A stretch of DNA of 38,380 nucleotides from Deltaproteobacteria bacterium (GTDB lineage: Bacteria > Myxococcota > JACPTQ01), in assembly GCA_016192705.1 (NCBI GenBank), contig JACPTQ010000020.1, positions 1 to 38,380 of the forward strand. The letters run 5' to 3'. This document shows, piece by piece, positions 27,619-37,950 of this stretch. How positions within the stretch are numbered: position 1 is the stretch's first letter; every line of letters begins with the position of its first letter. The translations under genes were made by a program, and so were the position numbers. A model generated the notes under the pieces. It did not search any database. It was not told the DNA's origin and worked only from the letters and a program-made list of their open reading frames with translations.

Positions 27619-27691
27619 GCCGAGGTAGCTCAGTTGGTAGAGCAGCGCATTCGTAATGCGCGGGTCGGGGGTTCAAGTCCCCCCCTTGGCT
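27619..27691 (+). tRNA. tRNA-Thr (anticodon CGT)
   Basis: A complete cloverleaf of 73 nt. The acceptor stem is GCCGAGG with CCTTGGC (one G-U pair), the D arm GCTC/GAGC, the anticodon stem GCGCA/TGCGC with loop TTCGTAA (anticodon CGT, reads ACG), the variable loop GGGTC, and the T arm GGGGG/CCCCC with loop TTCAAGT. CCA is not encoded (TAT follows). A single-gene transcript from the promoter just upstream is likely. A 22-nt near-copy of its 3' end lies 337 bp downstream. Confidence 0.97.
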
Positions 27692-27832
27692 ATTTTCGCC
27701 GCATTCTGCGCGAATGCCTGTGGCAATTTCCGCTGCTTTCTGCGGACAAGCCAGCGGCTTGTTCGCGCAGCGGAAATGGCGAGGGCGACGGAACGGAGCC
27801 CGATGTCCACACCGGGAGCGCGCGGCGAAAAT
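27692..27832. repeat. Palindromic element P0, interrupted by element P1
   Basis: Arms ATTTTCGCCGC (27692-27702) and GCGGCGAAAAT (27822-27832) are perfectly complementary over 11 bp. The right arm is followed by GGGGAG, as in the other P copies (GGCGAG or GGGGAG). Between the arms lie a small hairpin (GCATTC/GAATGC, 27701-27717) and the whole of P1. P0 lacks its own second hairpin, which is cut off by P2. This reads as one P element inserted into another. Confidence 0.6.
27726..27801 (+). repeat. Palindromic element P1
   Basis: Outer stem ATTTCCGCTG/CAGCGGAAAT (27726-27735 with 27768-27777, 10 bp perfect). Inner stem 27743-27752 with 27756-27765 (CGGACAAGCC/GGCTTGTTCG, one G-T pair, loop AGC). 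The second hairpin is GGGC/GCCC (27783-27786 with 27798-27801) around the constant loop GACGGAACGGA. The same layout with different but still paired stem bases occurs in P2 and P3. Confidence 0.8.
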
Positions 27833-27841
27833 GGGGAGCGC

Positions 27842-27917
27842 CTATTTGCGAGCCGTCTGTCGACAAGCCGGCGGCTTGTCGGCGCGAGCAAATGGCGAGA
27901 CCGACGGAACGGAGGTC
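27842..27917 (+). repeat. Palindromic element P2
   Basis: Outer stem ATTTGC/GCAAAT (27844-27849 with 27888-27893, extended by a C-G and a T-G pair). Inner stem CGACAAGCC/GGCTTGTCG (27861-27869 with 27873-27881, 9 bp perfect, 3-base loop). Second hairpin GACC/GGTC (27899-27902 with 27914-27917) around GACGGAACGGA. Downstream at 27943-27954 is GCGAACCCCACC, shared exactly with P3. Confidence 0.8.
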
Positions 27918-28008
27918 GCAGCCTACCACAACTTTGCAGAGCGCGAACCCCACCTTGCTCACCGCAGTTGGACACGCTCGCTCTCGCTCGCGTTTGATCA
28001 GCAGCGCG

Positions 28009-28030
28009 TGCAAGTCCCCCCCTTTGCTAT
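28009..28030 (+). repeat. Near-copy of the tRNA-Thr 3' end
   Basis: TGCAAGTCCCCCCCTTTGCTAT matches the tRNA region 27672-27693 at 20 of 22 positions. The bases just before it (AGCAGCGC, 28000-28007) match 27641-27648 of the tRNA D arm/anticodon stem, so the copy looks like a tRNA fragment with an internal deletion. Together with the real tRNA end it flanks the P0/P1/P2 island, as attachment-site repeats flank integrated elements. It ends 4 bp before the stop codon of the FHA-GAF gene. Confidence 0.65.
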
Positions 28031-28034
28031 CAAA

Positions 28035-34458: not shown

Positions 34459-35319
34459 ATGCCCCGGCCACTCCCCATCCGCCTTGGTGGCGCCGTTCGC
34501 GAAGCGGCGTACATCGCGAAGAACCTCGTCGATCATGGCGTCGCGCTCGCGATGCGCTTCTCGCCGCGTCACCAGCCCTACTTGACACGTCGCCTCCGCA
34601 CCTACCGAGGTCAGCGCAGCGCCGTCTTTCTCTTTCACGGCTACCTCCAGTGGGGCCCGACGTTTAACCGACTCGAGAAACTACTCGACCTCGAGCCGCT
34701 CGATCTCTTCCCCGTCAATTGCGACTATCAGCCCTATTCACAAGACCTGCGGCGCTCCGCGGACGAGGAGCGAAGCACGATCGACTGGGTGCTCGCGAAA
34801 ACCGACGTGCGCGAGGTGTTTCTCGTGGGACACAGCCAGGGCGGCATCATCGCGCGTGAGATCGCGCAGCGACAGACGCCGATTCGCGGCCTCACGCGCG
34901 TTGTGACGCTGTCGTCGCCGCATCAGGGGACCTACACGGCGCACGTGGGAAACGTGAATTGGGCGGTGACGCGCGCACTTCGCGTGGTGCCGGGGTTTCC
35001 GCGCATCGATGGCGAATCGGGACGCCAAATCAACGTCGGCAGCCGCTACCTCGAATCGCTGAACGCATGCCCGTTGCCACGCGACGTCACATTCGTGTCG
35101 ATTTTCAATCACTGGGACCCGTTTGTGACGCCGACGAAGAACGCGCGGATGCCTTACCCAGAAGCCACGAACATTTGCCTCGATAAGCCGGGGCACTTTC
35201 ATCCGCTCTATGATGTCGACACGCACGCGCTCGTCGTGCGCGCGCTATTCGGCCGGCTTCGTGAATCGCAGGGCGAGCGCCTCGATCTCGCGAACACGCG
35301 TGGCGCCCACAGCCGGTAA
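34459..35319 (+). CDS. Alpha/beta-hydrolase, lipase-like (triacylglycerol lipase/PGAP1-type)
   Basis: 286 residues. The oxyanion segment is VFLFHGYLQWGPTFNRLEK, the nucleophile elbow GHSQGGIIA and the segment after it VVTLSSPHQGT, typical of esterases and lipases of the PGAP1/LipA-like group. The likely acid is Asp in NHWDPFVTP and the likely His is in KPGHFHPLYD. No signal peptide; the N-terminus is basic and partly hydrophobic. Ribosome site GGGAGG sits only 3 bp from the ATG, and a TATAAT (34444-34449) lies before it without a matching -35. The last 75 bp overlap the 3' end of tal-pgi on the other strand. Confidence 0.82.
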   Translation: MPRPLPIRLGGAVREAAYIAKNLVDHGVALAMRFSPRHQPYLTRRLRTYRGQRSAVFLFHGYLQWGPTFNRLEKLLDLEPLDLFPVNCDYQPYSQDLRRSADEERSTIDWVLAKTDVREVFLVGHSQGGIIAREIAQRQTPIRGLTRVVTLSSPHQGTYTAHVGNVNWAVTRALRVVPGFPRIDGESGRQINVGSRYLESLNACPLPRDVTFVSIFNHWDPFVTPTKNARMPYPEATNICLDKPGHFHPLYDVDTHALVVRALFGRLRESQGERLDLANTRGAHSR

Positions 35320-37950
35320 AGAAACGCGCGCGACGCGACGCTTGTGGCGAATGAGCGTGGCGACGTCGCCAGCGGCCTGGGCGTCGATGAGTTGCCCGAA
35401 AGTATAAGGGCGGCCGGGGATCGCGAGATCGTCGGCGCGGGATGCCGTGAGCACGATGAAAACGCCGTTCGCGGGGCCGCCCTTGTGGAGCTGCCCTGTC
35501 GAATGGAGGTAGCGCGGGCCAAAGCCGAGCGTTGTTGCGGCGCCGGTTGCGTCGCGAATCTTCTCGCGAAGCCGGCCAAGGGCCGAAGCGTCGTCGGGTG
35601 ACGGTTGAAAATAGGCAAGAAGCGCAACGTAGTCTGCGGGGCGGATCGAAGCCGCGAGTTCCGTCGCGTCAAGCCCGTTGGTCGCCGATTCCTCGCCCGA
35701 CAAGACTTTCCACGTCACCTCTTTCGCTTCTGAAACGTTTGGTTCATCAAATGGGTTGACGCCAAGCGCCGCGGCTGCGACGGCCGTCGCGATTTCCCAC
35801 GCGTAAAACTCGGCACCCAAATCGAGTGCGTCGGCGATCACCCGACGCATGACGGGGAATCCGGCCGATTCGAGCGTCTTGAGCGCGGACGGCTCAACTT
35901 CGCCGATCGTCCGAACGGAAACAAAGCAGCGATCTGCGCCATAATTTCGCGAGCAATCGGCGGAGAAGCCAGTGGCTTCTCCGTGCGAGCGAAATGGGGA
36001 GCCCGACGGACACGGAGGGCGAACCCCACCGTTTCCCGCAGGCTCGCCGAGCAACTCGCCGTCAACGGGAACAACGCCTCGCCCTTCTTTGCCGAGACTC
36101 TCCGCAACGAGTTGCTCGATCCAAAGTCCGAGCGCGGAAAGGGCGGGCGAGAGGACGAGCGTCAACTTGTCCCGCAGCATCGTCGCCTGGCGCCCAATAA
36201 ACGACCCGAGCAGAGCTCCGTCGTCTTCACGAACACGCCCAAGAAGCGCCGAGACATCGACACCCGCGAGTGCCGCCGGGACAAGGCCAAAGTACGAGAG
36301 CGCCGAATATCGCCCGCCAATGTCGCCTGGGTTCACAAAGATACGCCGAAATCCGTTTTCCTTCGCGAGGCGCTCGAGCGGCGTTCCCGCATCTGTAATC
36401 GCGACGAAAGCGTCACCTCGCATCGACGTTCGCTCCCAAAAATAACGCCAAAGCGCATCGACTTCGATCGTTGTGCCCGATTTGCTCGCGACAACAAACA
36501 GCGTGCGCTTCGCGTCGATGCGCCGCTCGGTCGCCCGGATCGCCTCAGGACAAGTCGTGTCGAGCACATGGAGTCGAAGCCCGTTGGCGTTTTCCCGGAA
36601 TGTCTGCCAAAAAACCTCGGCCGCAAGGCTCGATCCTCCCATCCCAAGAACAACCGCGTCGGTGAACCCCGCACCGCGCACGTCCGCGGCAAACGACTTT
36701 AATTCGCCCGCGCGCTCCCGCGCCCACGGCACGCATGACACCCAACCGAGCCGATTCGTGATGGCCGAGACCGCGTCCGGCGCCGACTTCCAAAGCGTCG
36801 CATCCTTTTGTCGCACGCGCGTGACGACGTCGCTCTTGACCGCGCGCCGCTTCTCGTCGATCCCCTGGATGAGCTTGTCGAACGACTCCGCAAAAAGCCG
36901 CACGCCATCTTTGAGCAACTCCGCGCAAACCGCATCGGTCGAAATCCCAAGCGCCGCAAGGTCGCCGACGATATTTCCGCACGCGTCCATCTCCGCAAGC
37001 GCGACGCGTCCATGCTCGTTGAACGCCTTCAGCGTCGCGGGCGGCATCGTGTTGACCGTATCTCTCGCAACAAGGTCATCGACATACTTCACGTCCGAGT
37101 AAGCCGCGTTTTTCGTTCCAGTCGACGCCCAAAGCGGCCGCTGCACGCGCGCACCCTTTGCCGCGAGCGCCTCCCATCGCGCCCCCGAAAAGACGCCCTT
37201 GAAGCGCGCATACGCGATCCGCGCGTTCGCAACCGCCGCGATGCCGACCTGCGCCTCTGCACGCGCCTTTTCCGCCGCCGACGTCGCCTTCGCCGCGATC
37301 TCCGCGAGCCGCTTGTCGATGACCGAGTCGACGCGCGACACAAAGAAGCTCGCAACCGACCGCACGCCCGAAAGCGGCAGCCCGCGCGCCGCCCGCGCTT
37401 CGAGCCCGTCGATATACGCGCGCATGACGTCACCGTACGCCTCGACCGAAAAGATGAGCGTCACGTTGACCGAAATCCCGTCCGCGATGAGCGCCCGAAT
37501 TGCCGGTACCCCCTCGGGCGTCGCCGGCACCTTTATATAGAGGTTGTCGCGCCCGATGCGCCCCCAAAAACTCCGCGCCTCGGCGATGGTTCCTGCCGTG
37601 TCGTGCGCGAGGTGCGGCGACACTTCTATAGATACAACGCCATCGACGCCGCGCGTCCGCTCGTAAACCGGGCGCAGAACATCACAAGCCGCGCGAATGT
37701 CGCCAAACGCAAGCGCTTCATAAATCTCCGTTGCGCTGGCTCCGGCCGCCGCAAGCCGTGCGATCTCCTCGGCGTACTCTTTCCCTTCGCGAATCGATTT
37801 TTCGAAAATCGTCGGGTTGCTCGTGACGCCGACGACGCCTTCTTCGTCCCGCAACCGCGCGAGTTCGCCCGACACGATGAGCCCACGCCCGAGCGAATCG
37901 AACCACACCGACTGCCCAAGCCCAAGAAGTGCCTCCGCGCGACAACCCAT
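35245..37950 (-). CDS. tal-pgi: Bifunctional transaldolase / glucose-6-phosphate isomerase
   Basis: 901 residues. The N-terminal transaldolase half (about 1-365) has GVTSNPTIFEKSI, NLYIKVPATPEG with Schiff-base Lys140, and VTLIFSVEAY. The C-terminal isomerase half has GMGGSSLAAEVF, VASKSGTTIEVDALW and FVNPGDIGGRYSALS. The fusion links the pentose phosphate pathway with glycolysis and is known in several bacterial groups. Residues 639-669 are not family sequence: they are encoded by palindromic element P3, inserted in frame between GELLGEPA and YGADRCFV. The isomerase may still work if this is a surface loop. Ribosome site GGGAGG precedes the ATG at 37950. Confidence 0.92.
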   Translation of the reverse strand: MGCRAEALLGLGQSVWFDSLGRGLIVSGELARLRDEEGVVGVTSNPTIFEKSIREGKEYAEEIARLAAAGASATEIYEALAFGDIRAACDVLRPVYERTRGVDGVVSIEVSPHLAHDTAGTIAEARSFWGRIGRDNLYIKVPATPEGVPAIRALIADGISVNVTLIFSVEAYGDVMRAYIDGLEARAARGLPLSGVRSVASFFVSRVDSVIDKRLAEIAAKATSAAEKARAEAQVGIAAVANARIAYARFKGVFSGARWEALAAKGARVQRPLWASTGTKNAAYSDVKYVDDLVARDTVNTMPPATLKAFNEHGRVALAEMDACGNIVGDLAALGISTDAVCAELLKDGVRLFAESFDKLIQGIDEKRRAVKSDVVTRVRQKDATLWKSAPDAVSAITNRLGWVSCVPWARERAGELKSFAADVRGAGFTDAVVLGMGGSSLAAEVFWQTFRENANGLRLHVLDTTCPEAIRATERRIDAKRTLFVVASKSGTTIEVDALWRYFWERTSMRGDAFVAITDAGTPLERLAKENGFRRIFVNPGDIGGRYSALSYFGLVPAALAGVDVSALLGRVREDDGALLGSFIGRQATMLRDKLTLVLSPALSALGLWIEQLVAESLGKEGRGVVPVDGELLGEPAGNGGVRPPCPSGSPFRSHGEATGFSADCSRNYGADRCFVSVRTIGEVEPSALKTLESAGFPVMRRVIADALDLGAEFYAWEIATAVAAAALGVNPFDEPNVSEAKEVTWKVLSGEESATNGLDATELAASIRPADYVALLAYFQPSPDDASALGRLREKIRDATGAATTLGFGPRYLHSTGQLHKGGPANGVFIVLTASRADDLAIPGRPYTFGQLIDAQAAGDVATLIRHKRRVARVSLPAVGATRVREIEALALRFTKPAE
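35944..36036 (+). repeat. Palindromic element P3 inside tal-pgi (in frame)
   Basis: 93 bp, exactly 31 codons. Outer stem ATTTCGC/GCGAAAT (35944-35950 with 35989-35995). Inner stem CGGAGAAGCC/GGCTTCTCCG (35961-35970 with 35974-35983, 10 bp perfect). Second hairpin GCCC/GGGC (36001-36004 with 36017-36020) around GACGGACACGGA. Then comes GCGAACCCCACC, identical to the P2 tail. Removing it would restore a normal isomerase loop (GEPA-YGADR). Confidence 0.85.

Follow-up and report, generated by a model that had tools for sequence, protein, structure and literature searches.

The repeat family described here, P, is probably a set of very small non-autonomous mobile elements spreading within one genome. 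A covariance model (R1) recovered at least 148 copies at E ≤ 0.01 from the 5.21-Mb genome of the host, each unit being 86 to 89 nt long (about 87 nt); this count is a lower bound, since 150 candidates were scored and further copies surface on single-locus searches. Three copies lie in the window, the 38,380-nucleotide stretch of DNA that was analysed. They had been described in an earlier note, which placed them correctly, with the right stems, and took a genome search for further paired copies as its refuting test; that search returned more than 145 others, with paired stems. Run on 194 further genomes from the phylum, the same model found no copy, and together these counts support the suggestion of an undescribed mobile palindromic element. 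The pattern AAATGGNGAGNNCGACGGA, built from the constant bases, occurred at 72 genome sites with at most one mismatch and, read backwards, at none. Neither the named GTDB species genomes nor viral contigs matched the core pattern exactly; this set possibly excludes the host genome itself. None of the comparison genomes was closer to the host than phylum level, and only relative to them does the family count as private to this genome. Since no close relative was compared and no empty site was seen, mobility is read from copy number and position. The assembly comprises 88 contigs, is 96.7% complete, and has P-bearing repeats at many contig ends. Surroundings of 147 copies were read in 94 fragments totaling 1.62 Mb (31% of the genome), and genes in these fragments were called with a simple home-made hexamer model, on which the in-frame counts below depend. 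Features of the window are as follows.

27619..27691, forward strand: tRNA-Thr (CGT); Rfam RF00005, 69.5 bits, and ARAGORN.
27691..27724, forward strand: 5' half of host element A2 (ATTTTCGCCGC..GCGCGAATGCCTGTGGC); read from the sequence, pairs with 27814-27832.
27725..27811, forward strand: P1, complete element; R1 match E 4e-19, fold z -5.0.
27812..27842, forward strand: middle of A2 (GGGAGCGC GCGGCGAAAAT GGGGAGCGCC); read from the sequence, junction layout as in other genomic copies.
27843..27927, forward strand: P2, complete element; R1 match E 4e-18, fold z -3.5.
27928..27954, forward strand: 3' end of A2 (TTTGCAGAGCGCGAACCCCACC); read from the sequence, matches uninterrupted CTGCTTGCAG-tip copies.
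35245..37950, reverse strand: bifunctional transaldolase/phosphoglucose isomerase gene (tal-pgi); NF007080 equivalog, 1003.9 bits (cut-off 712), Pfam TAL_FSA and PGI.
35943..36030, forward strand: P3, complete, with one extra tip base (GACGGACACGGA); R1 match E 1.5e-21, frame test.

Every copy of P is a two-hairpin fold, and aligned copies support four helices in it. A MAFFT alignment of 33 copies, scored against the named 29-pair structure, had 97.6% of its cells paired, compared with 80.5% in shuffles and 32 to 44% in slid registers. Hairpin 1 opens with (T/A)ATTT and continues through three to four variable pairs, a two-base step, GC/GC and about five unpaired bases to the inner stem; the outer stem reads ATTT../..AAAT, and the inner stem has 11 pairs with AGT/AGC at the apex. 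At the two-base step, GA faces GA in 22 of the 33 copies, and the rest have Watson-Crick pairs there (CC/GG, CT/AG and similar), which is what sheared tandem G-A pairs would allow; these conserved pairs were absent from the first description. Hairpin 2 follows immediately as GGN / GA / G-NN-C / tip / G-NN-C / GNA / NCC (also written GGN-GAG-NNC-(tip)-GNN-CGNA-NCC), usually with the tip GACGGAACGGA. All three stems originally reported to covary do so, and beyond them a fourth short helix, GGN with NCC around hairpin 2, covaries as well (G-C 19, C-G 11, U-A 2). Against this variation in the stems, the unpaired columns GA, GACGGA and GGA never change. Truncation polarity gives no direction of synthesis, as copies consisting of hairpin 1 only are rare. 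Outside the model alignment, two copies following tRNA-Cys and tRNA-Arg (L233, L243) have the GGG/CCC helix around hairpin 2 flipped to CCC/GGG (CCCGAG...GAGGG), an instance of further covariation. At L020 and L028, a complete P is abutted on its right flank by another 5' half of itself, which ends at or near the apex.

Changes on both sides were found at 16 pairs of the 33-copy alignment, and its covariation score was 0.467 compared with 0.155 in shuffles. Because the copies are related, events were also counted on a FastTree tree, giving 61 co-changes, 57 of them compensatory. When 3' columns were swapped between pairs as a null, compensatory events averaged 0.7 and never exceeded 6. The claim that covariation of the stems reflects selection on a folded form is supported by this comparison. 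Folded as single strands, P1, P2 and P3 had z-scores against shuffles of -5.0, -3.5 and -5.2, respectively. The drawn strand has 32 G-T pairs and 4 A-C pairs (p = 2e-6), where the other strand would show the reverse; the drawn strand is therefore the folding strand. This asymmetry fits folded RNA and folded single-stranded DNA alike. Covariation could also arise without selection if hairpin-templated mutation (quasi-palindrome correction) and recombination perfected the palindromes, with copies made via slippage and gene conversion. Replication-type rearrangements at P fit such a process, namely the tandem partial repeats at L020 and L028 and the exact ~80-bp duplication next to one copy (described below), but an eightfold excess of G-T over A-C is unexpected from strand-symmetric correction, and neither the persistence of the tandem G-A mismatch in two thirds of the aligned copies (22/33) nor the invariance of the unpaired motifs is in keeping with it. 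We consider this account hardly credible.

P1 and P2 are both nested in a third element, A2, which was missing from the earlier note and starts at the 3' end of tRNA-Thr, its own insertion point. P1 sits in the apex of the inner hairpin of A2 and P2 in the tip of its second hairpin, so that the middle segment listed above consists of the 3' arms of A2 hairpin 1 plus the 5' arm of its hairpin 2. The apex junction, AGTGGC^T...CCGGG, recurs in host elements of differing sequence. Recurrent nested junctions were not counted as independent insertions because composites may themselves move; distinct types (the apex with two subfamilies, and the tip) suggest at least three separate nesting events. 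Downstream of A2, positions 27955-28031 hold a second tRNA-linked sequence type (..CTCGCTCTCGCTCG..), which closes with an imperfect copy of the 3' end of the upstream tRNA (GTGCAAGTCCCCCCCTTTGCTAT). This type also occurs in L244 and L245, after tRNA-Met and tRNA-Glu, with the matching inverted repeat of the tRNA end.

Association of P with tRNA genes extends across the genome. From 41 Rfam matches, one of them weak, 40 tRNA genes were counted, and at least 15 of these have a copy of P beginning at their 3' end, without exception in sense. Two other copies (C44, C16) interrupt tRNA sequence, in the anticodon loop of a tRNA-Arg and the D region of a tRNA-Leu; in both cases an intact tRNA gene follows closely. 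At L013:1370-1665, a P within a partial tRNA-Arg is flanked by an exact direct repeat of ~80 bp that includes the 5' half of the tRNA gene, and an intact tRNA-Arg comes next. The flank 3' of P is T-rich.

Protein-coding genes also contain P. P3 lies in frame within tal-pgi, a gene not mentioned in the earlier note, at codons about 640-669 of the opposite strand. About 20 copies fall inside ORFs, with 19 in sense and 4 in antisense orientation; in a strict set the sense bias is only 9 versus 2 (p = 0.065). Where same-strand coding signal was present on both sides, 11 of 16 copies were in frame, and at least one of the other five was at a gene end. The only leucyl-tRNA synthetase (LeuRS) in the genome carries P in frame between the N-terminal helix and the first Rossmann strand, as placed by alignment to 1h3n (junction APVRAQDK|WYQLTMLPYPSG); the sole other genome match to its editing domain is weak and covers part of the model (34.6 versus 223.9 bits). 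In prolyl-tRNA synthetase (ProRS), P is in frame in the editing domain. P also lies in the genes for an acyl-CoA ligase, an AhbC/NirJ1-like radical SAM protein, phosphatidylserine decarboxylase and, at the N-terminus, GyrA. Where P and the gene run in the same direction, the frame read through P is mostly open, which makes insertions of this kind survivable. The extra tip base seen in P3 was present in 6 of 13 in-gene copies versus 6 of 33 (p = 0.07), which is only suggestive of frame repair.

These positions bear on two further explanations. If P were removed after transcription or skipped in translation, as are rRNA intervening sequences and mitochondrial byps, essential proteins would be made without it. 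Its location in or beside catalytic-domain regions of LeuRS, ProRS and the acyl-CoA ligase, and a compact, stable fold by z-score, would suit that arrangement; yet frames remain open and in frame through P, which is needless under skipping, and the intact tRNA genes downstream of C44 and C16 make splicing dispensable there. We regard removal or skipping as very improbable. A primary role as a structured RNA is also unlikely for P; on that account it would be, for example, a terminator, a signal for processing or a tRNA 3' trailer, copied into many transcripts and maintained for what the RNA does. In favor of such a role are the sense-only copies at tRNA 3' ends, the sense bias within genes (19 versus 4), the T-rich 3' flank and the identity of the sense strand with the folding strand. 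However, 25 tRNA genes lack P, copies occur mid-gene in coding sequence, four of them antisense, and inside one another, and the family matches no Rfam family above threshold and is absent from relatives in the phylum (194 genomes). In Rfam, no family reached the gathering score for P, and only tRNA did so in the window; the best sub-threshold match was RF03169, to P2 alone (21.5 bits versus 40), and identification of P2 as a c-di-GMP-II riboswitch was rejected as a chance match.

Around 51 of the 147 copies read lie within two types of larger noncoding palindromic repeat. Palindromic noncoding repeats of ~0.6-0.7 kb with P inside were seen at L034:1582-2294, at L036:1597-2231 and at many contig ends. 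In the two types, P is followed by ..GAATGG or ..AATCGC, and the repeat breaks the assembly at many contig ends. A module of ~75 nt (ACACCCGAGATCTTTGTGTGCTCGGAG...GCAGTGCCGCGC), apparently another structured element, occupies the tip of hairpin 2 in about 13 copies, including L034:2030-2105 and L044:2020-2095.

A linked REP-type Y1 transposase, for which the earlier note had proposed a search, was not supported, with no match to PF01797 in the 96.7%-complete assembly of the host, while control genomes gave matches. The host genome likewise returned no match to reverse transcriptase (RVT_1, PF00078), TnpB, IS110 or rve. Eight tyrosine recombinase matches were present, and no link between them and P was seen. 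Among multicopy proteins in the 1.6 Mb read (31% of the genome), none was transposase-like. No GTAG-type REP signature was seen, nor were inverted REP doublets with a short conserved tetranucleotide found, P being a fixed two-hairpin unit. Strand-specific hairpins, compensatory stem changes and the lack of target duplication would fit single-strand transposition, and thus a REP/REPIN-like or IS200/IS605-derived origin whose Y1 transposase has been lost or falls in an assembly gap; but the assembly yielded neither Y1_Tnp nor TnpB, the doublets are missing, and REPs are extragenic where P is often intragenic. Without a Y1 transposase, membership in the REP/REPIN group fails, and we judge this origin rather improbable. 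The mobilizing enzyme could be missing from the assembly, since the latter is 96.7% complete and in 88 contigs, many ending in P-bearing repeats; it could also belong to another family or be a host enzyme.

No consistent target-site duplication was detected, the best enrichment being a 3-bp match at 8 of 72 copies (1.7 expected). A fixed target duplication was accordingly rejected, and the ~80-bp duplication at tRNA-Arg is a single case. A hairpin-loop target for stand-alone copies was rejected too: empty sites were no more structured than random positions, and loop targeting thus applies to nested copies alone.

By description, P appears to work like the Rickettsia palindromic elements (RPE) and to look like the mitochondrial double-hairpin elements (DHE), both likenesses being analogies, since the host is no mitochondrion and was not identified as Rickettsia. 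RPE occur between genes, in frame in conserved protein genes and also in RNA genes, and their transcripts form stem-loops; they are 105-146 bp long with terminal inverted repeats, are found in obligate intracellular bacteria, and have an unknown mobility enzyme (PMC2229807). P is similarly small and palindromic and lies both between genes and in frame in conserved protein genes, where its frame is read through. Unlike RPE, it is ~87 nt long, with two serial hairpins and fixed unpaired motifs, occupies tRNA 3' ends and nests in itself. DHE, known from Allomyces and Schizosaccharomyces, comprise two consecutive hairpins, are thought to be mobile, and occur in intergenic regions and rRNA genes of fungal mitochondria, at low copy in fission yeasts (1-14 per genome) (PMC10085805). 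P shares their two adjacent hairpins (29 pairs, 97.6% of cells paired), whereas it is bacterial and chromosomal (5.2-Mb genome), has at least 148 copies and enters protein genes in frame. REPINs, mobilized with RAYTs, are high-copy non-autonomous hairpin repeats in which compensatory stem changes are common (PMC3116915); P differs in the absence of a Y1 transposase from the genome and of inverted REP doublets, and in having many copies inside genes. Bacterial MITEs (NEMIS/Correia, ERIC, RUP) are non-autonomous repeats of ~100 bp with folded transcripts, some fused in frame to genes, and usually have terminal inverted repeats and target duplication (PMC2229807). P, in contrast, lacks a consistent target duplication, and a parent transposon did not turn up in the rve, IS110 and TnpB searches or in the 31% of the genome read.

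Taken as a mobile element, P would spread when one of its strands folds, as single-stranded DNA or as RNA. An enzyme acting in trans would then recognize the fold together with the constant unpaired bases GGNGAG and GACGGA..CGGA, and insert the element at sites starting T/A-A. We infer this recognition from copy number, the scattered and nested positions, and the conserved fold with its fixed unpaired motifs. P may persist because it does little harm, read-through frames usually being open and net insertions frame-preserving, and host proteins would carry a 29-30-residue insert derived from it. More speculatively, P might represent a new mobility system, in which a folded single strand is inserted in sense by an enzyme outside the reverse transcriptases and known transposases, or by host enzymes of replication or repair. 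Such a system would favor tRNA 3' ends and the loops of its own hairpins, letting elements grow by nesting; we think this possible, though doubtful.

Ever since the Rickettsia elements, small palindromic elements within protein genes have been a matter of debate, and we know of no enzyme for them. In this genome there are about 150 copies, their fold is known to the single base pair, P is tied precisely to tRNA 3' ends, and the nesting preserves the sequence of events. P thereby opens to testing the strand and the enzyme by which such elements move, and its insertions in ProRS, tal-pgi and the sole LeuRS make testable how essential enzymes tolerate a hairpin-encoded insert.
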